From positions 1-40,723 of the forward strand of contig JABUEW010000029.1 of assembly GCA_013314855.1 (NCBI GenBank): 40,723 nucleotides of DNA, given 5' to 3'. The notes beneath the pieces were generated by a model that saw only the letters and a program-made list of their open reading frames with translations, did not search any database and was not told the origin of the DNA. Numbering within the stretch: position 1 is the first letter of the stretch; the number at the start of each line of letters is the position of its first letter. Shown here one piece after another: positions 149 through 40,723 of this stretch. The translations under genes and the position numbers were made by a program. The stretch comes from Bacillota bacterium (GTDB taxonomy: Bacteria > Bacillota > Clostridia > Acetivibrionales > DUMC01).

Positions 149-650
149 GTTTTTATCGTACCTATAAGGAATTGAAACCGTGTGTTTATTCGTGGCTGCG
201 GGAGGGCGTACCAGTGTTTTTATCGTACCTATAAGGAATTGAAACTCACAATGGCGAAATTCGGCTGTGAAGGAAATGCTATCGTTTTTATCGTACCTAT
301 AAGGAATTGAAACTATCCAAGAGCGTTCAGTTTGTCTATGATTTCGCCGTGTTTTTATCGTACATATAAGGAATTGAAACTTGCCTCATCAATGAATAAG
401 AATGCTCCAAAAGATAATGGTTTTTATCGTACCTATAAGGAATTGAAACTACACTTAACATTGAGCCATTTACATTTGAGATAGAAGTTTTTATCGTACC
501 TATAAGGAATTGAAACATCGTGCGCCCAAAAAGGTGAACGGAAAATTCAACAAAGTTTTTATCGTACCTATAAGGAATTGAAACCTATTTCCACATATCT
601 CTTTTCAATCAATTTCTCCAGTTTTTATCGTACCTATAAGGAATTGAAAC

Positions 651-822
651 AATATTAACTGTGTGCCTTCTTCTCCTATTTCGTATGTGTTTTTATCGTA
701 CCTATAAGGAATTGAAACCGTTTAAAAGTTATAAAATCCAATAGTAGCCCTCCAGTTTTTATCGTACCTATAAGGAATTGAAACAATATTAACTGTGTGC
801 CTTCTTCTCCTATTTCGTATGT
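651..822 (+). repeat. Duplicated spacer: spacers 8 and 10 are identical
   Basis: The 38-nt spacers at 651-688 and 785-822 are the same sequence (start AATATTAACTGTGTGCC, end TTTCGTATGT). They are separated by one unrelated spacer (719-754) and its repeats. Either the same protospacer was acquired twice or a recombination between repeats copied the unit. Confidence 0.97.
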
Positions 823-1121
823 GTTTTTATCGTACCTATAAGGAATTGAAACTTCTTTTAGTATTTTATTGAATTCTTCATATGAAATAGTTTTTATCGT
901 ACCTGTAAGGAATTGAAACTTATCTATATTTCATTTTCCCATAATTTCAGTACAGGGTTTTTATCGTACCTATAAGGAATTGAAACTAATCTGCCGCTTT
1001 TTGGTATGACGTTTTTTGATTTATGTTTTTATCGTACCTATAAGGAATTGAAACATTCATCTTGAGTATAAGCCTTAAGTAAATTCTTTACGTTTTTATC
1101 GTACCTATAAGGAATTGAAAC

Positions 1122-1627
1122 TAAAAAAACCATATTTTCTAAACTCTATTTCTCTTCGTTTTTATCGTACCTATAAGGAATTGAAACAACAATTCCTCTA
1201 ACTTTCTTTTCTTAACTTCCATTTCGTTTTTATCGTACCTATAAGGAATTGAAACATTCATCTATCATTATAGGCCCTGCCCTCCACTTTCCGTTTTTAT
1301 CGTACCTATAAGGAATTGAAACTACTGTTTAGTCTATCTAAAACGTCAATAACTTCAAGTTTTTATCGTACCTATAAGGAATTGAAACGAGAATACAGGA
1401 AAAGATATGGAGATAAGATATATAGTTTTTATCGTACCTATAAGGAATTGAAACCTACTACCTGGATTAAATCTATCACTAACAAACTGCCGTTTTTATC
1501 GTACCTATAAGGAATTGAAACTCTATAAAGTATTTACTGAAGGTTATAGGAGAGTTAGCGTTTTTATCGTACCTATAAGGAATTGAAACTACTAGAAGAG
1601 AAATAGAGTTTAGAAAATATGGTTTTT
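1122..1627 (+). repeat. Reverse-complementary spacer pair (spacers 15 and 22)
   Basis: Spacer 15 (1122-1157) and spacer 22 (1590-1627) share a 33-nt core in opposite orientation. Spacer 15 carries CCATATTTTCTAAACTC and spacer 22 carries its exact complement GAGTTTAGAAAATATGG. Spacer 15 extends 3 nt past the core on one side and spacer 22 extends 5 nt on the other, so they are independent captures of one locus from opposite strands, not a simple inversion. Confidence 0.95.
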
Positions 1628-4323
1628 GTTTTTATCGTACCTATAAGGAATTGAAACAGATAAAAGTTATATTTTATATTATTATTTTATATATATGTTT
1701 TTATCGTACCTATAAGGAATTGAAACACGGAATATTTTTTGGAATAAAATTGTTGACTTATGGTTTTTATCGTACCTATAAGGAATTGAAACTCCCTGCT
1801 GCATTTGTGATTTGTTTTTCCCGATTAACGTTTTTATCGTACCTATAAGGAATTGAAACTTTTCCCATTCCTCCAAATTGTATATCCATCCATAGTTTTT
1901 ATCGTACCTATAAGGAATTGAAACAGTTCAACACATCCGTTTTCGTGCAATTTCCCGTATTGGTTTTTATCGTACCTATAAGGAATTGAAACGTATTTGC
2001 CCTGTAGTCCTTGCGGTTCTAGCTTTTTCGTTTTTATCGTACCTATAAGGAATTGAAACATGCTCCTGGCAATGTATTATCATAATTTTCTTTTTCCGTT
2101 TTTATCGTACCTATAAGGAATTGAAACTGTCCTTTGGACTTACGGCTTCAATGCCAAACCATTCGTTTTTATCGTACCTATAAGGAATTGAAACTTGGTT
2201 TATCCCCGCCTTCAATCGGGCCCATATTCAGTTTTTATCGTACCTATAAGGAATTGAAACATAAAGTTACTCTATAAAGATATAAAAGAGAATATAGTTT
2301 TTATCGTACCTATAAGGAATTGAAACTTTCCAATTGATGTTTGGATTGCAGTAATAGCTAGTTTGTTTTTATCGTACCTATAAGGAATTGAAACTACGGA
2401 ATATATGGATATTTTGGATTGCCAGGGTCAGGAAGTTTTTATCGTACCTATAAGGAATTGAAACTTTAAGATATTCATTGGTATTTTCACTGGTGACTGG
2501 GTTTTTATCGTACCTATAAGGAATTGAAACGTTCTCCTACCGAACTAGGCCCAGGCCGTGATGCCGAGTTTTTATCGTACCTATAAGGAATTGAAACTAC
2601 TTCGCTGTCAACTCTTTGTGAAGCTGTAATGTGTTTTTATCGTACCTATAAGGAATTGAAACAAAGCATCGGGTCTATTTCAACAACAAGAATGCCGGTT
2701 TTTATCGTACCTATAAGGAATTGAAACGTGGCAAAGTGCCTTTTGGATATCGGTTGAAAAATAGGTTTTTATCGTACCTATAAGGAATTGAAACTTTCAT
2801 CATCCCTCGCTTTACCCATTACAATTTTTCCATTTTTATCGTACCTATAAGGAATTGAAACTTGGCAAAATTGAGAGCGGCCAATTTGATGGCTGTCGTT
2901 TTTATCGTACCTATAAGGAATTGAAACGAAGGAGGTAGAATCGTGTTGAGCGAATATAGAGTAGTTTTTATCGTACCTATAAGGAATTGAAACGCACATA
3001 CAAGCATATCCTCTGCATGTATGCGTATTGTTTTTATCGTACCTATAAGGAATTGAAACTTCATCCAGACGATAAAGACGCAGAATCAACAAAAGGTTTT
3101 TATCGTACCTATAAGGAATTGAAACTGAGAAACATAATAATAAGTATTCGGCTCAACTGGCACGTTTTTATCGTACCTATAAGGAATTGAAACATGCAGT
3201 AGTCAGATAGCTTGCAAAATACAGCGACAGTTTTTATCGTACCTATAAGGAATTGAAACAGGCCAATTGTGTAGCAAGTTTCTCCTGCATCATCTGGGTT
3301 TTTATCGTACCTATAAGGAATTGAAACTCTCGTTCATACGCTTTTAACCTCCTTCAACGGACACCGTTTTTATCGTACTTATAAGGAATTGAAACCCAAG
3401 ACATATAAATTTGTCTGGCAAAGAACAAATACGTTTTTATCGTACCTATAAGGAATTGAAACTGTCCTCGAAGTATATTTCTGTATCGTTTACACTTTGT
3501 TTTTATCGTACCTATAAGGAATTGAAACTCTCAAAGTGTGAACAGTCTTACATGTTTTCAGTCTTAGTTTTTATCGTACCTATAAGGAATTGAAACATAC
3601 CAGCTTGAATACCGAGCCAAATCCATTTGCCCAGTTTTTATCGTACCTATAAGGAATTGAAACCTATATAATTATACTGCTGTCAACTAAAACTAATTGT
3701 TTTTATCGTACCTATAAGGAATTGAAACAAGAAGGGGCTCTTAAATATGGAGGAGCAACAAAATTGTTTTTATCGTACCTATAAGGAATTGAAACGCACC
3801 TGGAAGATTACAACTGCTGCTGTCAGGTCGTTTTTATCGTACCTATAAGGAATTGAAACTTAATTATATTATATTAATATTTTACTGTAATAAGTGTTTT
3901 TATCGTACCTATAAGGAATTGAAACCTGTATTAGTCATGCTCGCCACGTTATCCCCGACATTAGTTTTTATCGTACCTATAAGGAATTGAAACTCCCCTG
4001 TTGTTGTACCCCCTGTTGTACCTCTTGTTGTGTTTTTATCGTACCTATAAGGAATTGAAACCTTGATTGTATTTTAGCATTGCATTGCTTTTTTGTCAGT
4101 TTTTATCGTACCTATAAGGAATTGAAACATTAGATTGCACTGTATAACCTCTTGTCCTTCGTCCAGTTTTTATCGTACCTATAAGGAATTGAAACCTGCC
4201 CGTATTGTGCTGTTGGCAGCCAATACAACTATGGTTTTTATCGTACCTATAAGGAATTGAAACTAGACAAACATGCAACACAAGTTGCACCATCAAACAG
4301 ATGAAAACGAGTTGATTTTGCGG

Positions 4324-4329
4324 TATAAT
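4324..4329 (+). promoter_or_regulatory. Candidate -10 box of the IS110 element
   Basis: A consensus TATAAT lies upstream of the structured region and the transposase gene. No good -35 lies 16-18 nt upstream (ATGAAA at 4301-4306). IS110 elements often complete a promoter only when the excised ends join, with the -35 in the right end and the -10 in the left end, which would fit. That assignment is inference. Confidence 0.4.
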
Positions 4330-4334
4330 ACTGG

Positions 4335-4500
4335 TACGGTGGAGAAGATCGAGTCTTCTTGGTGCTTTAAGCCCGTGAACTAGACTGATTTCAGCTTCCT
4401 GCTTGTACCACAAATTGTTGCCATCTTAAAAGATGAGCACGCAGGGTAGATTAATAATGTTCGGGAAGCTGCGCCGAATATTACAGCCATAGAGGTGTTG
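4335..4500 (+). ncRNA. Candidate IS110 bridge RNA
   Basis: The noncoding stretch before the transposase is rich in perfect stems. AGAAGA (4343-4348) pairs with TCTTCT (4354-4359) across a 5-nt loop. CAGCTTCC (4392-4399) pairs with GGAAGCTG (4464-4471) as a long-range stem. Inside it CATCTT (4422-4427) pairs with AAGATG (4430-4435). A 5' hairpin followed by larger looped domains just upstream of the recombinase is the layout of the bridge RNAs that guide IS110 recombinases to donor and target. The guide loops cannot be assigned without the element boundaries. The limits given are approximate. Confidence 0.5.
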
Positions 4501-4505
4501 TAGGG

Positions 4506-5729
4506 ATGGAAGTAATATACGAGCGTTGTTGTGGGTTGGATGTCCATAAGGACAAAATAGTTGCCTGTATCAGGTCCGGCAATAGGAAGGAAACAAGGAC
4601 ATTTGGCACGGTAACAGAGGATTTGCTATTACTTATTGACTGGATTAAGAGCGAGGGGTGCCAGATGGTGGCTATGGAAAGCACTGGGTCGTATTGGAAG
4701 CCTGTATACAACCTATTGGAAATGGAGGGGATACCGGCAATGGTAGTCAATGCTCAGCATATCAAGGCGGTGCCTGGGCGTAAGACCGACGTGACTGACT
4801 CGGAATGGATTGCAGACTTACTAAAGCACGGACTGTTGAAGGGGAGCTATATTCCAAGTCGTGATCAGAGGGAATTAAAAGAACTGGTAAGATATCGCAG
4901 GAGTATGATAGATGAACGGGCAAGAGAATTGAACCGTTTGCAGAAAGTACTTGAGGGAGCGAATATCAAACTGGGTTCGGTGGTAAGTGACATTAATGGA
5001 GTATCAGCGCGACAGATGTTGATGTCGATGATTCAAGGAAATGAGGATGTAGACAAGCTGGTGTTGTTTGCAAAGGGGAAAATGAGGGAAAAGACGGAAG
5101 ATTTGAAACGTGCTCTCAAAGGGATGATGGGTGAACATCAGCGAATGATCCTAACCAGGATGATGGAGCATATCAATTATCTGGATGGGCTCATTGAAGG
5201 TCTGGACGAAGAAATCAAGAGAAGGATGCGCCCTTTTGAGGAAAAGGTGGCTGCGCTGGATGCGATAACCGGGGTAGGAGAGCGAAGCGCACAAACAATC
5301 ATCGCAGAAATCGGGATAGATATGAGTACATTCCCGAGTGCAAGACACCTTGCGTCATGGGCAGGAATGTGCCCCGGTAACAACGAAAGCGCTGGCAAGA
5401 AGAAGAGTGGAAAGACACGGAAGGGCAATAATACATTGCGATGTACACTGGTTGAGTGTGCAAAAGCGGCAGGAAGAAGCAAGAACACATACCTTTCGGA
5501 ACAATACAAAAGACTTGCTGCAAGGCGAGGCAGGAACCGTGCAGCCGTAGCTGTAGGACACTCTATTCTGACTATAGCATATTACATTTTAAGAGATAAC
5601 AGAACATTTTATGATTTAGGTGCTGATTACTTTGAAAAAAGAAAGAAAAAGGATATTGTCCGTAGAGCAGTGAAACGCCTTGAAGCTCTGGGATATAAGG
5701 TAACTATCGAAGAAGAGATAAGTGCCTGA
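4506..5729 (+). CDS. IS110-family transposase (DEDD recombinase)
   Basis: This 407-residue protein has the full IS110 architecture. The N-terminal RuvC-like DEDD domain opens with GLDVHKDKIVA; the acidic residues are D12, E58 (AMESTGSYW), D95 and D98 (KTDVTDSE). A helical middle region follows (about 150-250). The C-terminal Transposase_20 domain has GVGERSAQTIIAEIG and CPGNNESAGKKKSGKTRKGNN, with S295 in the position of the catalytic serine. The length is normal and no frameshift is seen, so the enzyme looks intact. Such enzymes excise the element as a circle and insert it at short targets using an RNA guide from the element's own noncoding end. It starts at ATG 4506 and is coded in the same direction as the array. 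Confidence 0.95.
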   Translation: MEVIYERCCGLDVHKDKIVACIRSGNRKETRTFGTVTEDLLLLIDWIKSEGCQMVAMESTGSYWKPVYNLLEMEGIPAMVVNAQHIKAVPGRKTDVTDSEWIADLLKHGLLKGSYIPSRDQRELKELVRYRRSMIDERARELNRLQKVLEGANIKLGSVVSDINGVSARQMLMSMIQGNEDVDKLVLFAKGKMREKTEDLKRALKGMMGEHQRMILTRMMEHINYLDGLIEGLDEEIKRRMRPFEEKVAALDAITGVGERSAQTIIAEIGIDMSTFPSARHLASWAGMCPGNNESAGKKKSGKTRKGNNTLRCTLVECAKAAGRSKNTYLSEQYKRLAARRGRNRAAVAVGHSILTIAYYILRDNRTFYDLGADYFEKRKKKDIVRRAVKRLEALGYKVTIEEEISA

Positions 5730-5877
5730 TAATATCCTTTTATATATAATAATTTTAATAATTTAAGTGCCTGGGACCCATGGATTCAGGTTTAGTAGAG
5801 ATTTTTTTGCTTTCGACTGGATTAATGGGAGTTTTCAGGATAGAATATAATGTAGGTGTTAATTTGCCTGAATGGGA
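5730..5877 (+). other. IS110 right end and interrupted-spacer remnant
   Basis: These 148 nt between the transposase stop and repeat 63 contain no gene. They must hold the right end of the element and the right part of the split spacer. The 12-nt AATGGGAGTTTT occurs at 5824-5835 and again across the junction into repeat 63 (5871-5882). Both copies place GTTTT after AATGGGA, so the first could be a leftover spacer-repeat boundary. I could not resolve this further. Confidence 0.45.
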
Positions 5878-6040
5878 GTTTTTATCGTACCTATAAGGAA
5901 TTGAAACTCGGAGATTGAGGCAGCAAAAGGGGATGATATGAAAGTTTTTATCGTACCTATAAGGAATTGAAACTCGTGATTCCATTCTTGCAAGGTGATA
6001 TTGTAATTCTGTTTTTATGGTACCTATAAGGAATTGAAAC
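5878..6040 (+). CRISPR. CRISPR array, distal block: 3 repeats, 2 spacers
   Basis: Repeats 63-65 lie at 5878-5907, 5944-5973 and 6011-6040, separated by 36- and 37-nt spacers. The first two match the consensus; the last carries C9G (TATGG in place of TATCG), a typical trailer-end decay. The block has the same phase and orientation as the main array, so the IS110 element split a single array. Transcripts from the leader must cross the element to reach these repeats. Confidence 0.95.
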
Positions 6041-35897: not shown

Positions 35898-35946
35898 GCA
35901 AGGGTGTTGTTGACATGCCCGGAAAAGCGTTGCGCTTAGATATCAA

Positions 35947-36073
35947 GGTAATAGTGTTATCGGATGAATTAAATGTATGCTTAAATTTATGCATTATTGT
36001 TACATAATTGGATGAAATTACTATAAAAGGCAGTATTAATAGGTACGAATAAAATTTTGATGCTTCAGCTCTG
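35947..36073 (+). repeat. Left copy of a 127-bp inverted pair flanking the BREX locus
   Basis: This segment matches the reverse complement of 40597-40723 at 107 of 127 positions with no gaps. In the frame ending at TAA 36005-36007 both copies encode the tail VIVLSD(E/D)LNV(C/W)LNLC and share the stop codon. The first six differences all fall on third codon positions, the mark of selection on protein. An open frame extends the left tail upstream to about 35888 (GISKGVVDMPGKALRLDIK). About 66 bp of shared 3' noncoding sequence ends at GCTTCAGCTCTG. The gene is not recognised; it may belong to an insertion sequence. Confidence 0.9.
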
Positions 36074-36109
36074 AGGTTCTCTTTTTTTTTAGTTTCTGAT
36101 CCAAAAATA

Positions 36110-36118
36110 TGATATAAT
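36110..36118 (+). promoter_or_regulatory. Extended -10 promoter of brxF
   Basis: TGA followed by TATAAT (36113-36118) is an extended -10 element about 60 nt before brxF. It lies 36 nt inside the left inverted copy, so the promoter belongs to the BREX fragment. A T-run occurs at 36082-36090. The rest of the 35784-36178 gap is covered by the truncated gene start and the repeat. Confidence 0.5.
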
Positions 36119-36178
36119 GTAAATCGATATTTTCGTAAATATTTATAATTCATAAATATTAGTAAAAGGTGATGGTTT

Positions 36179-36667
36179 GTGGCTGATATCGGCGAATTTA
36201 AGGAATTAGCCGCTTCTCTGTCCAGTGAGTACTACAAGCTTCTTTTATTGGTTGGCGGCAGCGGGAGAGGAAAGACAAGCTTTATAAGAAAAATCTGCAG
36301 TGAAGATACTGATAAATATAGATACATAAATTTAAACCGGGCATTATCTGAAAAGTTGAAGGAAATACCGATAGCAGAGAGATGCTACTATGTGCAGGAT
36401 TACATAGATGATATTGTAAAAGATAATCCGGGTGATTTTTTGGTGTTGGATAACATAGAGATAATTTTCTCCAGGCACCTCCAGGTAGAGCCGTTAAGAT
36501 TATTGAAAAATATTTCAAAATACAGAAAAACAATTACCGCGTGGCCGGGAAGCATAAAGGACGGATATTTGACCTATGCCGAACCCTGGCATAAGGATTA
36601 TGTCAAATATAGTTTAAATGATTTGGAGTGCTTATATATAAATCTTGAGAGGGGTATGCAGTTATGA
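36179..36667 (+). CDS. brxF: BrxF, small P-loop ATPase of BREX type 3
   Basis: This 162-residue P-loop protein has Walker A LLVGGSGRGKTSF (K32, T33) and a Walker B-like DFLVLDNIEIIF (about 87-98). A lone ATPase of this size placed directly before a 1200-residue BrxC/PglY is the signature of BREX type 3, whose first gene is brxF. The start is GTG 36179 behind AAAAGGTGATGG; a nearby ATG at 36172 is out of frame. The end overlaps brxC by 4 nt (ATGA). Its biochemical role is unknown in the family. Confidence 0.82.
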   Translation: MADIGEFKELAASLSSEYYKLLLLVGGSGRGKTSFIRKICSEDTDKYRYINLNRALSEKLKEIPIAERCYYVQDYIDDIVKDNPGDFLVLDNIEIIFSRHLQVEPLRLLKNISKYRKTITAWPGSIKDGYLTYAEPWHKDYVKYSLNDLECLYINLERGMQL

Positions 36668-39600
36668 AGTATAGGGATTTAATACAGTTTGAACCTATTG
36701 AAACTGTAGTTAAATTGAAGGATGCGGATACCAGGAGTGAGGCGGAAAGACTGGTAAAAACCTATGTAATGTCGGACAGTATGGCTGATAGCTTAATAGG
36801 CGTAGTTTTGCCGCAATTGCAATTTGAACGGACTGTTGACAATAAAGGAGTTTTTATCGTCGGTAATTACGGCACGGGCAAATCCCACCTTATGTCGGTT
36901 ATATCGGCGATTGCAGAAGATGCCGAGCTTTTGAACCTGGTAAAGCATGATGAATTTAAGAAACATGCTCAATCCATTGCAGGGAAGTTTGAAGTTTTAA
37001 GATTTGAAATCGGTGCTTCCAAGATGAATTTACGTGACATCATTTTAAGCAATATAGAAAAAGACCTGAAAAAACGGGGGATTGGCTATAAATTCCCACC
37101 TGTAGATAAAGTTACCGACAATAAACAATATTTGATTGAAATGATGGGGCTTTTTGAAGAAAAATATCCCGGCAAAGGATATTTGATAGTTGTTGACGAA
37201 CTGCTTGATTACTTGCAGCATAAAAAAGAACTTGAAATTAAGTTTGACCTGGGGTTCTTGCGTGAAATGGGAGAAGTGAGCAAAAACACCCGTATAAGAT
37301 TCATGGCGGGAGTACAGGAAACCCTATTTGACAATCCGTCTTTCTCGTTTGTTGCAAAAACCATATTAAAGGTTAAAGACAGGTATGAGCAGATCATAAT
37401 AAAAAGAGAGGATATATCCTATGTGGTTTCTCAAAGACTGCTGCAAAAAAATAATGAACAGAAGGCATGGATAAGGGAGCACCTGCAGAATTTTAGCTCC
37501 ATGTACAAAAACATGGCCGACCGGCTAGAAGAATATACAAACCTTTTTCCAATCCATCCTGCATACCTGGAGACATTTGAAAAAGTATACATAGCAGAAA
37601 AGAGAGAAGTACTGAAGACCATTACCATGACCATTCGGGAAATTCTTGATGAGGATGTTCCCCACGATGAGCCCGGTCTTGTTTCATACGATGCATACTG
37701 GACGTTTATAAAAAATAATCCGTCAAACAGGACTGACCCTGATATTAAGGAAGTGATTGATAAAAGTGAAATATTGGAGGGAATCATTAGGAATTCTTTC
37801 ACGAGATTGCCGTATAAGCCAATGGCGCTGCGGATTATATATGCTTTAAGTGTCCACAGGCTGACAACCGGAAGCATCAACGTACCAATAGGAATAACGG
37901 TACAGAACATGAAGGATGACTTATGCATATATGATTCAATGCTCCCGGAGAAGGAAGAGGACTTTCTTATTACTACGATAGAAACGGTAATGAGAGAGAT
38001 TTCCAATACCGTCAGCGGGCAGTTTATTGAATATAACCGTGAAAATGAGCAGTATTACCTTGATTTGAAAAAGGATATAGATTACAATGCAAGAATCCGG
38101 CAAAAAGCCGATGTGCTGGATGATGACAGCCTTAACGAATATTATTTTGACATCATCAATAAGGCAACCGAGTGGGATGCACCGGAGTATGTAACGGGTT
38201 TTAAAATATATGAATATGAGCTGCTCTGGGAGGATAAAAATGTTACAAGACAGGGGTACCGCTTTTTAGGAACCCCTAACGAACGTTCTACTGCACACCC
38301 CCCAAGGGATTTCTATGTTTATTTTTTGCCTCCTTACGGGGCAAATAATTATAATAGTGAAGACAATGAAGATGAAGTTTATTTTGAATTTATCGGTGAT
38401 GATGAATTTAAAGATGTATTAAAATTGTATACTGCTGCACATAAAATGGCAGAGGTTTCATCAAGCGAAAGTAAAGCTACCTACCTAAATAAAGCTGCAG
38501 GATATCAGAAAAGTGCCATAAATTGGATACATAAAAACATAAGCCAATGTTTTAATGTAAGGTATAGGGGGGAGAGCAGGAGCATATTAAATTGGTTAAC
38601 AGGTAGAAGATTGGGGGACAGGACCCTTAAGGAACAGATAGATATGGCTGCATCCGCCGGCCTGTCAACATGGTTTAACGAGCTGTACCCCGATTATCCA
38701 AGATTTTCACTGACTATAACATCAAACAATATAAATCAGATGTTCAAAAATGGGATGGAATATATTGCAGGTAAGGAAACCGATACAGGAATGAAAGTTC
38801 TTGATTCTTTTAAGCTTTTAGATGGAGATATAATTGCGCCCCATAAATCAGTGTATGGAAAATACTTCATTGATGTTATAAACAACCTGCCGCAAGGCAG
38901 AGTATTAAATAGGGGAGATATCATTGAGCGCATCAATGAAGATACGGAATATGACAGGAAGTTTAAATTGGAGCCCATTTGGGTGGCATTGATTTTGTCT
39001 GCAATGGTTTATAGCGGGGATATCATCCTTACAGTAGGAAAAAAGACTTATGATGCCACCATGCTTAAGGAACTGGCAGCAGAAAATACTTATGATTTGA
39101 TAAATTTCAAACATTGCGAAAGACCAAGGGACATACCCATAGCCGTGTTAAAAAAGCTTTTTGAAATGTTGGGGTTACCTCCCGGACAGATTGTTAATGC
39201 CAACACAAGGGATGCTGCCGTAGCGGGCATGCTTATCAGGATAGATGAATATATTGAAAAAGCTTTGAAGGCCATTGTATTCCTCAATGGAGACACGACA
39301 ATATGGGGGAGGCCTTCATTGGAACCTTATAAAGTTGAAAATTATAAGGGTAGTATCAGGAGTTTTAAAGAGTTCCTTGATTCTATAAAAAGATACAATA
39401 CCCAGGCAAAACTTAAGAACTTTAAATATACCGGTGAAGATATTGAAAAACATGCGGCTGCTTTAAAGCAACTTGCCGAAATCGATAAAATAAAGGAACT
39501 AAAGACAACAATTGAGACCGATACTTCTTATATTTCAGCAGCAGAGGTTATATTAAATGATAAATCGTGGATGGACAAGGTAAATGCATTAAAAACAAAA

Positions 39601-40332
39601 TTGGAAATGGCATTGAAGGATATCAACAGCATAGATGAAAACTTTATCCGGATATTCAATATTGAATTGGCAGAATTGAAAGACGAGTATATAAGCCTGT
39701 ACATGGAGCTTCATAAAAAGCACAGGCTTGATTTAAAGGGTGACAATGCCAAAAAGAGGATTATGAGGGGGAATGAGCTGAATAACCTGAAAAGACTGAC
39801 TGCCATTGAGGGCATACTTCCGGTTATCAGGTTAACGAAAATCCTGGAGAAAATTTCCGGATTAAACACTTGTTATAACCTTACGGAACAGGATATGAAA
39901 AGCAAGTATATATGCCCACACTGTAAATTTAACCCCTCGGAGGGCAGTAAGCCCGTATACGGAGTAATTGACTCGGTGGAGAATGATATTGACAGGCTTT
40001 ATGAAGAATGGACCGAAATTATTATAAACAGCATAGAAGACCCAATGGTAAAAGGGAATATACCTTATTTGAAGCCGGAGCAGCAGGAAGCAATAAACAA
40101 GCTACTAAATACAGGAAAGCTACCTGATGTTATTGATGGGAACTTTATATCAGGTGTCAATACATTAATGCAAGGCCTTGAAAAAATTGAAGTATCTATA
40201 GAAGATATGAAGAAAGCCGTATTCGGCGATGGCCCTGCCGGTATAGATGATATCAGGGCGAGATTTGAAAGATTCATAGGAGAACTCACAAAAGGCAAAG
40301 ACGAGAACAAAGTAAGAATTATTATAAAATAG
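36664..40332 (+). CDS. brxC: BrxC/PglY-type ATPase of BREX type 3 (DUF6079-like)
   Basis: This 1222-residue ATPase is the core P-loop protein of BREX phage defence. Walker A is GNYGTGKSH (G67-K73-S74) and Walker B is LIVVDELLDYL near 174-184; a sensor-like region RIRFMAGVQETLFD follows. The middle region is long and unassigned. Near the end CPHC (about 1084-1087) could be half of a zinc site. The length is normal and the frame is intact. In a complete BREX-3 locus pglX (adenine methyltransferase), brxHII, pglZ and brxA follow; here only the first codons of pglX remain. It is therefore probably an orphan without defence activity unless the rest is encoded elsewhere. Confidence 0.85.
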   Translation: MKYRDLIQFEPIETVVKLKDADTRSEAERLVKTYVMSDSMADSLIGVVLPQLQFERTVDNKGVFIVGNYGTGKSHLMSVISAIAEDAELLNLVKHDEFKKHAQSIAGKFEVLRFEIGASKMNLRDIILSNIEKDLKKRGIGYKFPPVDKVTDNKQYLIEMMGLFEEKYPGKGYLIVVDELLDYLQHKKELEIKFDLGFLREMGEVSKNTRIRFMAGVQETLFDNPSFSFVAKTILKVKDRYEQIIIKREDISYVVSQRLLQKNNEQKAWIREHLQNFSSMYKNMADRLEEYTNLFPIHPAYLETFEKVYIAEKREVLKTITMTIREILDEDVPHDEPGLVSYDAYWTFIKNNPSNRTDPDIKEVIDKSEILEGIIRNSFTRLPYKPMALRIIYALSVHRLTTGSINVPIGITVQNMKDDLCIYDSMLPEKEEDFLITTIETVMREISNTVSGQFIEYNRENEQYYLDLKKDIDYNARIRQKADVLDDDSLNEYYFDIINKATEWDAPEYVTGFKIYEYELLWEDKNVTRQGYRFLGTPNERSTAHPPRDFYVYFLPPYGANNYNSEDNEDEVYFEFIGDDEFKDVLKLYTAAHKMAEVSSSESKATYLNKAAGYQKSAINWIHKNISQCFNVRYRGESRSILNWLTGRRLGDRTLKEQIDMAASAGLSTWFNELYPDYPRFSLTITSNNINQMFKNGMEYIAGKETDTGMKVLDSFKLLDGDIIAPHKSVYGKYFIDVINNLPQGRVLNRGDIIERINEDTEYDRKFKLEPIWVALILSAMVYSGDIILTVGKKTYDATMLKELAAENTYDLINFKHCERPRDIPIAVLKKLFEMLGLPPGQIVNANTRDAAVAGMLIRIDEYIEKALKAIVFLNGDTTIWGRPSLEPYKVENYKGSIRSFKEFLDSIKRYNTQAKLKNFKYTGEDIEKHAAALKQLAEIDKIKELKTTIETDTSYISAAEVILNDKSWMDKVNALKTKLEMALKDINSIDENFIRIFNIELAELKDEYISLYMELHKKHRLDLKGDNAKKRIMRGNELNNLKRLTAIEGILPVIRLTKILEKISGLNTCYNLTEQDMKSKYICPHCKFNPSEGSKPVYGVIDSVENDIDRLYEEWTEIIINSIEDPMVKGNIPYLKPEQQEAINKLLNTGKLPDVIDGNFISGVNTLMQGLEKIEVSIEDMKKAVFGDGPAGIDDIRARFERFIGELTKGKDENKVRIIIK

Positions 40333-40350
40333 TGGAGTGGGGGTAGCATC

Positions 40351-40437
40351 ATGGAATTAACCAAGGAAATGATAGATAAAGTAAGGGATATTGACGGATT
40401 TCCCATAGGTAAAGATGAGGATATTATTAAACCCTAA
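40351..40437 (+). pseudogene. pglX (BREX-3 methyltransferase), N-terminal stub
   Basis: ATG 40351, 18 nt after brxC and preceded by a G-rich ribosome site, codes MELTKEMIDKVRDIDGFPIG and KDEDIIKP, then stops at TAA 40435-40437. The start resembles that of the BREX type 3 adenine-specific methyltransferase, which directly follows brxC. The full protein has roughly a thousand residues, so nearly all of it is lost. The break lies at about 40430; the sequence beyond belongs to the right-hand flanking element. Confidence 0.75.
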
Positions 40438-40550
40438 CTTTTCGACTTTACGTAATATGCATTCCTAATGAATCCATAAGAACCTTTGTCTTATTGGCAA
40501 TTTCAGACGTCACCCATTGCTGATTAATTTTTAATTTATGATGCATTAAT

Positions 40551-40579
40551 ATTATATTCAGTGATGTGAATAAAGTCAA
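40551..40579 (-). promoter_or_regulatory. Strong minus-strand promoter near the right inverted copy
   Basis: On the minus strand TTGACT (40579-40574) and TATAAT (40556-40551) are exactly 17 nt apart. It fires left, towards the pglX stub and the 3' end of brxC. The only frame it serves is a 32-codon ORF (40448-40546) whose ATG lies at the predicted transcript start and has no ribosome site. It could make an antisense RNA or belong to a cut-off element. Confidence 0.55.
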
Positions 40580-40596
40580 GTATTCAACACATGCAC

Positions 40597-40723
40597 CAGA
40601 GCTGAAGCATGAAAATTTTATTCTTATCCATTAATAGTGGCTGCGTTAGTAATTTTATCCAATTATATAATAATATTACATAAATTTAACCATACGTTTA
40701 AGTCATCGGATAACACTATAACC
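40597..40723 (-). repeat. Right copy of the 127-bp inverted pair (continues past the window)
   Basis: This is the reverse-complement partner of 35947-36073. Read on the minus strand it gives VIVLSDDLNVWLNLC and then NIII before the shared stop, followed by the same 3' flank down to GCTTCAGCTCTG. It reaches the window edge still aligned, so the gene or element continues outside. Its 3' end points towards the BREX fragment, as does that of the left copy. Confidence 0.9.

Follow-up and report, generated by a model that had tools for sequence, protein, structure and literature searches.

The window analyzed here, 40,723 nucleotides in length, is the entire contig C29 of a fragmented 4.43-Mb draft genome of a Bacillota bacterium (252 contigs, 3.3% contamination). 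Toward its right end, the BREX-3 genes brxF and brxC and a stub of pglX are bracketed by two convergent copies of a repeat (Table 1), as the preliminary description of this DNA had noted. The left copy is an old relic that has lost its left part, with homology to other copies (contigs C208, C103 and C6) beginning at about 35900. This old copy stands behind the BREX-3 promoter and the right, young copy behind an unrelated promoter, and the two converge only because these promoters face each other. The window also contains a CRISPR array (150-5975) with a 30-bp repeat, GTTTTTATCGTACCTATAAGGAATTGAAAC, whose 24-base core occurs in 61 exact copies in the window; a very long array of the same repeat, about 17 kb, is found on contig C11.

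Table 1. Features of the BREX-3 region and of the two flanking element copies, in coordinates of the window.
Feature	Position	Strand	Basis
Right-end relic of the element, 5'-truncated, terminus ...ATGCTTCAGCTCTG at 36073	35900..36073	+	Aligned with C208/C103/C6; 33-copy alignment
BREX-3 operon promoter beyond the relic: -35-like AGTTTC 36091-36096, -10 TATAAT 36113-36118	36091..36118	+	
brxF (BREX-3)	36179..36667	+	NCBIfam BREX_3_BrxF 2e-49; PADLOC BrxF 7e-52
brxC	36664..40332	+	PADLOC BrxC, E reported as 0, 1710 bits; Pfam DUF6079
pglX stub, 28 codons; homology to the intact pglX of contig C103 stops at 40432	40351..40437	+	
Promoter at the right copy: -35 TTGACT 40579-40574, -10 TATAAT 40556-40551, spacing 17	40551..40579	-	
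9-bp target duplication GTGCATGTG; second copy beside a left end in contig C141	40588..40596	-	
Right end of the young multicopy element, truncated where the contig stops	40597..40723	-	

The two copies match without gaps at 107 of 127 positions (35947-36073 against the reverse complement of 40597-40723), and the similarity ends at both limits, as originally described. This resemblance is far above chance, since the genome contains this sequence about 33 times. A genome search for more copies, which had been proposed as a check, yielded 33 right ends and 28 left ends, corresponding to about 30 copies of the element. The identical 127 bases begin about 25 other contig ends, with the terminus always on the same side. 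At the opposite end of the window, exactly 127 bp are common to two contig ends and 134 to a third, and unrelated repeats at other contig ends likewise break at 127. Given this exact sharing at so many contig ends, the length of the right copy was set by the assembler's k-mer overlap (k = 127) and is no biological boundary. Other dispersed repeat families, one with ...ATGCGCCC, break the ends of C10, C13, C14, C18, C20, C31, C32, C36 and C37.

What had been taken for a shared C-terminal protein tail and stop codon is actually an open frame of about 31 codons located downstream of the transposase stop codon. The third-position bias cited for it holds for the left copy (2,2,6), whereas two other copies do not have it (2,2,1 each); moreover, distant elements have no recognisable counterpart of the frame. 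Because the bias is present in one comparison only and the frame is not recognisable in distant elements, it is probably not a protein tail.

The element consists, in order, of a left end (CAGAGATGAAGCACGAATTT), a DruA-like gene, a DDE transposase gene and a right end (TTCATGCTTCAGCTCTG). Complete relatives, 2.7-2.8 kb long, share this layout and have short inverted repeats. For the young copies, the assembly lacks the body of the element, which was deduced from both ends and from relatives. In diverged copies in this genome, the C-terminus of the transposase precedes the right end, and the gene after the left end opens with residues (MNNTNRTFSGRTF, taken directly from contig-end sequence) that match the DruA-like gene found in C141, in a related copy of the element. 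Searches with the right-end sequence as query recovered no left ends because the left repeat differs (CAGAGATG, CACG), and left ends were detected only through comparison of contig ends. A distant clade without DruA, homologous by profile, comprises elements of 1.63-1.66 kb. No relative was found in the phage collection searched, and the plasmids searched held distant relatives only. One internally deleted copy (L117; C3:12300-13400) has the DruA C-terminus fused straight to a right end that still lies 17 bp from TTGATT/TTATAC, and it is possibly a non-autonomous derivative. In Acetivibrio alkalicellulosi (L078, 883-1971), a single frame starts with an IS110-type DEDD N-terminus, continues into the first half of this transposase and is followed by a frameshift.

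The transposase matches the DDE_Tnp_1_assoc profile and, weakly, DDE_Tnp_1, and its fold aligns with that of the Tn5 transposase 1mm8 (Foldseek E 2e-8; VIA Z 24.4, rmsd 3.9, 366 residues). As in Tn5 and the IS4 superfamily, the Tn5-fold DDE domain carries a beta-strand insertion, and short inverted repeats are combined with a 9-bp target duplication. The catalytic E lies in an R(3)E(6)K-like motif (invariant D168, D262 and E395; R391-(3)-E395-(6)-K402) that resembles the Y-R-E-K signature of the superfamily in part, as no Y is seen three residues before the R. The protein scores far below the cut-offs of the NCBIfam IS4, IS1380, ISH3 and ISAs1 models, with no NCBIfam family above its cut-off. 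We therefore place it at the level of the IS4 superfamily alone and in none of these four named families.

The first gene of the element belongs to the DruA family (DUF4338, PF14236; 5e-45), like the DruA protein of Druantia. Its predicted structure (pLDDT 63) resembles GNAT acetyltransferases and phage Mu Mom, which tentatively suggests a GNAT-like fold, in agreement with the assignment of DruA to GNAT (PMC10853773). No other Druantia dru genes lie around the DruA-like gene, which is followed by the transposase alone. Here, the gene travels with an insertion sequence, as its passenger or accessory, and is not a defence system.

Evidence that the element moves comes from its flanks. Between separate contigs, 16 left flanks pair exactly and uniquely with right flanks by their nine terminal bases, against a chance expectation of about 0.004 pairs (28 x 33 / 4^9, for random sequence, and somewhat higher in AT-rich DNA). 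Nine-base duplications are also present at L135, L140 and L143, and at the distant relatives L184, L185 and L186. The nine bases beside the right copy of the window recur at a left-end flank in C141 (L028 pairs with L285), where the reading frames past the copy are unrelated to BREX. Its own 9-bp duplication shows that this copy inserted independently, as a simple insertion, and is not one half of a composite transposon. Two DruA-less copies that lie 29 kb apart on one contig (L173 and L178; G513 contig 18) have swapped flanks: TATCTCACT occurs to the left of one copy and to the right of the other, as recombination between copies would leave it.

In nearly every copy in the genome, the terminal CTCTG is followed by 17 variable bases, a -35-like hexamer, 17 further bases and a -10-like hexamer. 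Among the 33 distinct right flanks, TTGACA is matched best at offset 18, with a mean of 4.42 of 6 positions (2.36 at the next best offset), the match to TATAAT peaks at offset 41, and the joint hexamer score is 9.70 versus 5.07 +/- 0.25 in dinucleotide shuffles (z 18.3). The same register holds (z 14.8) in 21 related elements, one in this genome and the rest elsewhere, whose right ends were placed from the inverted-repeat motif, independently of the promoter. Left flanks read outward have no promoter signal, with scores of 1.46 and 3.18 versus 4.42 and 5.27 on the right. The element inserts in a single orientation, its right end on the promoter side at about -53 from the transcription start, and its nine-base stagger spans about -52 to -44. 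Where the -35 is weak (at most 3 of 6), the flanks keep a strong -10 (z 9.6), so both hexamers matter, despite the 41 bp that separate the -10 from the cut. The promoter of brxF in the window, some 60 bp ahead of the gene, has a weak -35 and a perfect -10 at 40-45 from the element end (AGTTTC-16-TATAAT).

There are exceptions to this pattern. A full promoter is absent at L077/L136 (inside ftsY), at L178 and at the cyanobacterial L185, and less clearly so at L143, L142 and L176. Within the DruA-less clade, L166, L083 and L186 keep the same spacing, L173 has the -10 alone, and L178 has neither hexamer. In this genome or in relatives, three insertions (C208, C103 and G788) lie within coding sequence that has promoter-like DNA, so true promoter activity is either not required or not proven at such sites.

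The genes downstream of insertions, judged by eye from their translations, include murC, pckG, mreB, trpS, valS behind a leader, carD, lepB, rpoB, guaB, RNase J and dapB, and tRNA genes (ARAGORN) stand behind three insertions in other genomes. In a genome of the same genus, the promoters of mreB, carD, trpS and the gene at L023 are present without the element, as is the promoter of the gene at L019 in a genome of the same family; the comparison is less clear for pckG and murC. The targets are therefore real promoters that existed before the element arrived.

Taken together, these observations make it likely that we are dealing with an insertion sequence that inserts one way, 17 bp upstream of the -35 of sigma-70/sigma-A promoters, with capture of RNA polymerase as the most likely means and with the BREX genes left untouched. 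The only conserved bases of the target are the hexamers read by sigma, up to 46 bp from the cut, and capture of polymerase-bound promoters is the simplest reading of this restriction. The transposase would capture promoter DNA occupied by the RNA polymerase holoenzyme and join the element ends just upstream, perhaps through contacts with sigma region 4 or the alpha C-terminal domains. The latter bind at -40 to -60, and the insertion point at about -53 falls inside this range. Insertion at this position leaves the core promoter intact, so that it is tolerated even at essential genes and the element can spread without gene breakage. Taken alone, the proposal that RNA polymerase is the guide to the target, which draws on established promoter biochemistry, is probable. 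We lean only slightly toward the broader scenario in which a transposase superfamily unrelated to the Mutator-like one of TnGBS, ISLre2 and ISKra4 independently evolved capture of promoter-bound holoenzyme with single-base precision and spread with it in Firmicutes, Spirochaetes and Gammaproteobacteria, the DruA-like GNAT protein aiding the element in some way.

Alternatively, the transposase or the DruA-like protein might read the -35 and -10 DNA directly, without RNA polymerase. The N-terminal 40 or so residues of the transposase and the N-terminal helices of DruA could bind DNA, and a few insertions within coding sequence have a good TTGACA and a poor -10 (L176 and L004), as direct reading would allow. 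However, the target information sits in the sigma hexamers only, of which the farther lies 41-46 bp away from the cut; the -10 stays conserved where the -35 is weak, and the targets resemble strong housekeeping and tRNA promoters. Direct reading by DruA is further opposed by the DruA-less elements L166, L083 and L186, which keep the same spacing and so weaken the case for DruA as a targeting factor. We consider direct reading unlikely on these grounds.

The arrangement in the window had initially been interpreted as a composite transposon that carried BREX-3, or as the outcome of recombination between copies that deleted the rest of BREX. The part of this proposal that invoked a mobile, multicopy element is borne out, and related inverted copies do flank the BREX fragment on both sides. 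Moreover, the BREX genes are divided between this contig and C103, which has a second BREX-3 locus (L066, 3530-10470, minus strand) with pglX, brxH and a split or partial pglZ. C103 also holds a 12-14% diverged copy of the stretch upstream of brxF, followed by a deletion that runs from codon 4 of brxF almost to the end of brxC and places an intact pglX directly behind the brxF promoter. The two loci thus hold complementary parts of BREX-3, either as paralogues in one cell or as two strains in a draft with 3.3% contamination. Yet neither BREX break coincides with an element end, the pglX break at about 40432 lying 164 bp outside the element. In addition, the right copy is flanked on each side by a duplication of its own, with unrelated DNA beyond, the left copy is a relic lacking its left part, and the two are just 84% identical. 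The element neither carried nor trimmed the BREX locus, and a composite transposon or inter-copy deletion is very improbable.

Two further explanations can be set aside almost completely. An immobile regulatory box shared by a regulon would account for the fixed distance and the constant position upstream of promoters, but hardly for full-length relatives with transposase, inverted repeats and 9-bp duplications, for several same-genus promoters that lack the box, or for one copy within a deoB-like gene fragment. Random insertion followed by survival only of copies upstream of promoters fits the harm that insertions in genes often do, but has next to no chance of being correct, because selection cannot fix orientation or distance to one base pair and would tolerate other intergenic positions and terminators equally.

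The targeting habit itself is known from other elements. TnGBS and ISLre2 (p-MULT 3) and the ISKra4 group (p-MULT 4) land 15-17 bp ahead of the -35 in sigma-A promoters, the p-MULT 3 elements in a fixed orientation with the right end beside the promoter, and their transposases are Mutator-like (IS256-related); the authors suggested a contact with the initiation complex of RNA polymerase (Guerillot et al. 2014, PMC3942029). The element described here is likewise oriented and lies at the same 15-17 bp upstream of the -35, but it has a Tn5-fold transposase and, in most copies, a DruA-like gene. The structural match is far better to Tn5 (Z 24) than to ISCth4 (Z 8.6), which we take to be an IS256-family transposase, and no Mutator-type Pfam family was among the transposase hits up to E 10 (9 members). 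To our knowledge, promoter targeting is not a property of Tn5 or IS4. PF13808, found in this transposase, presumably also occurs in the ISAs1 family (E. coli H-repeats), but the transposase scores 14-17 versus an NCBIfam ISAs1 cut-off of 70. We considered ISAs1/H-repeats as a family with the same habit and rejected them, as the yhhI element of K-12, a single decayed copy, has no promoter at this spacing. A literature search that left ISfinder and subscription journals outside its reach found no Tn5-fold element with the promoter-upstream habit, and within that scope the combination of this habit with a Tn5-fold transposase is new. Elsewhere in the genome, a second repeat, ending ...ATAGGTCCTG, lies at the ends of C28, C7 and C34 (L126, L211 and L257) and is followed after 18 bp by TTGACA-17-TATAAT (L126) or by TTGAAT (L257). 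It is possibly another promoter-targeting element, perhaps of the ISLre2 kind.

A parallel can also be drawn with the yeast retrotransposons Ty1 and Ty3, for which a harmless site ahead of genes, tRNA genes among them, is marked by the polymerase machinery (PMC5911963). These elements are unrelated to the one described here and use eukaryotic Pol III factors, with no evolutionary link. Insertion next to promoters has so far been described for one bacterial transposase superfamily. If our reading is true, a second, structurally different superfamily working in a one-base-pair register would represent convergent use of the transcription machinery for safe landing, and would be a bacterial counterpart of Ty1 and Ty3. 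How a transposase reads bound polymerase would then become directly testable, and each insertion of the element in a draft genome would also mark a promoter.
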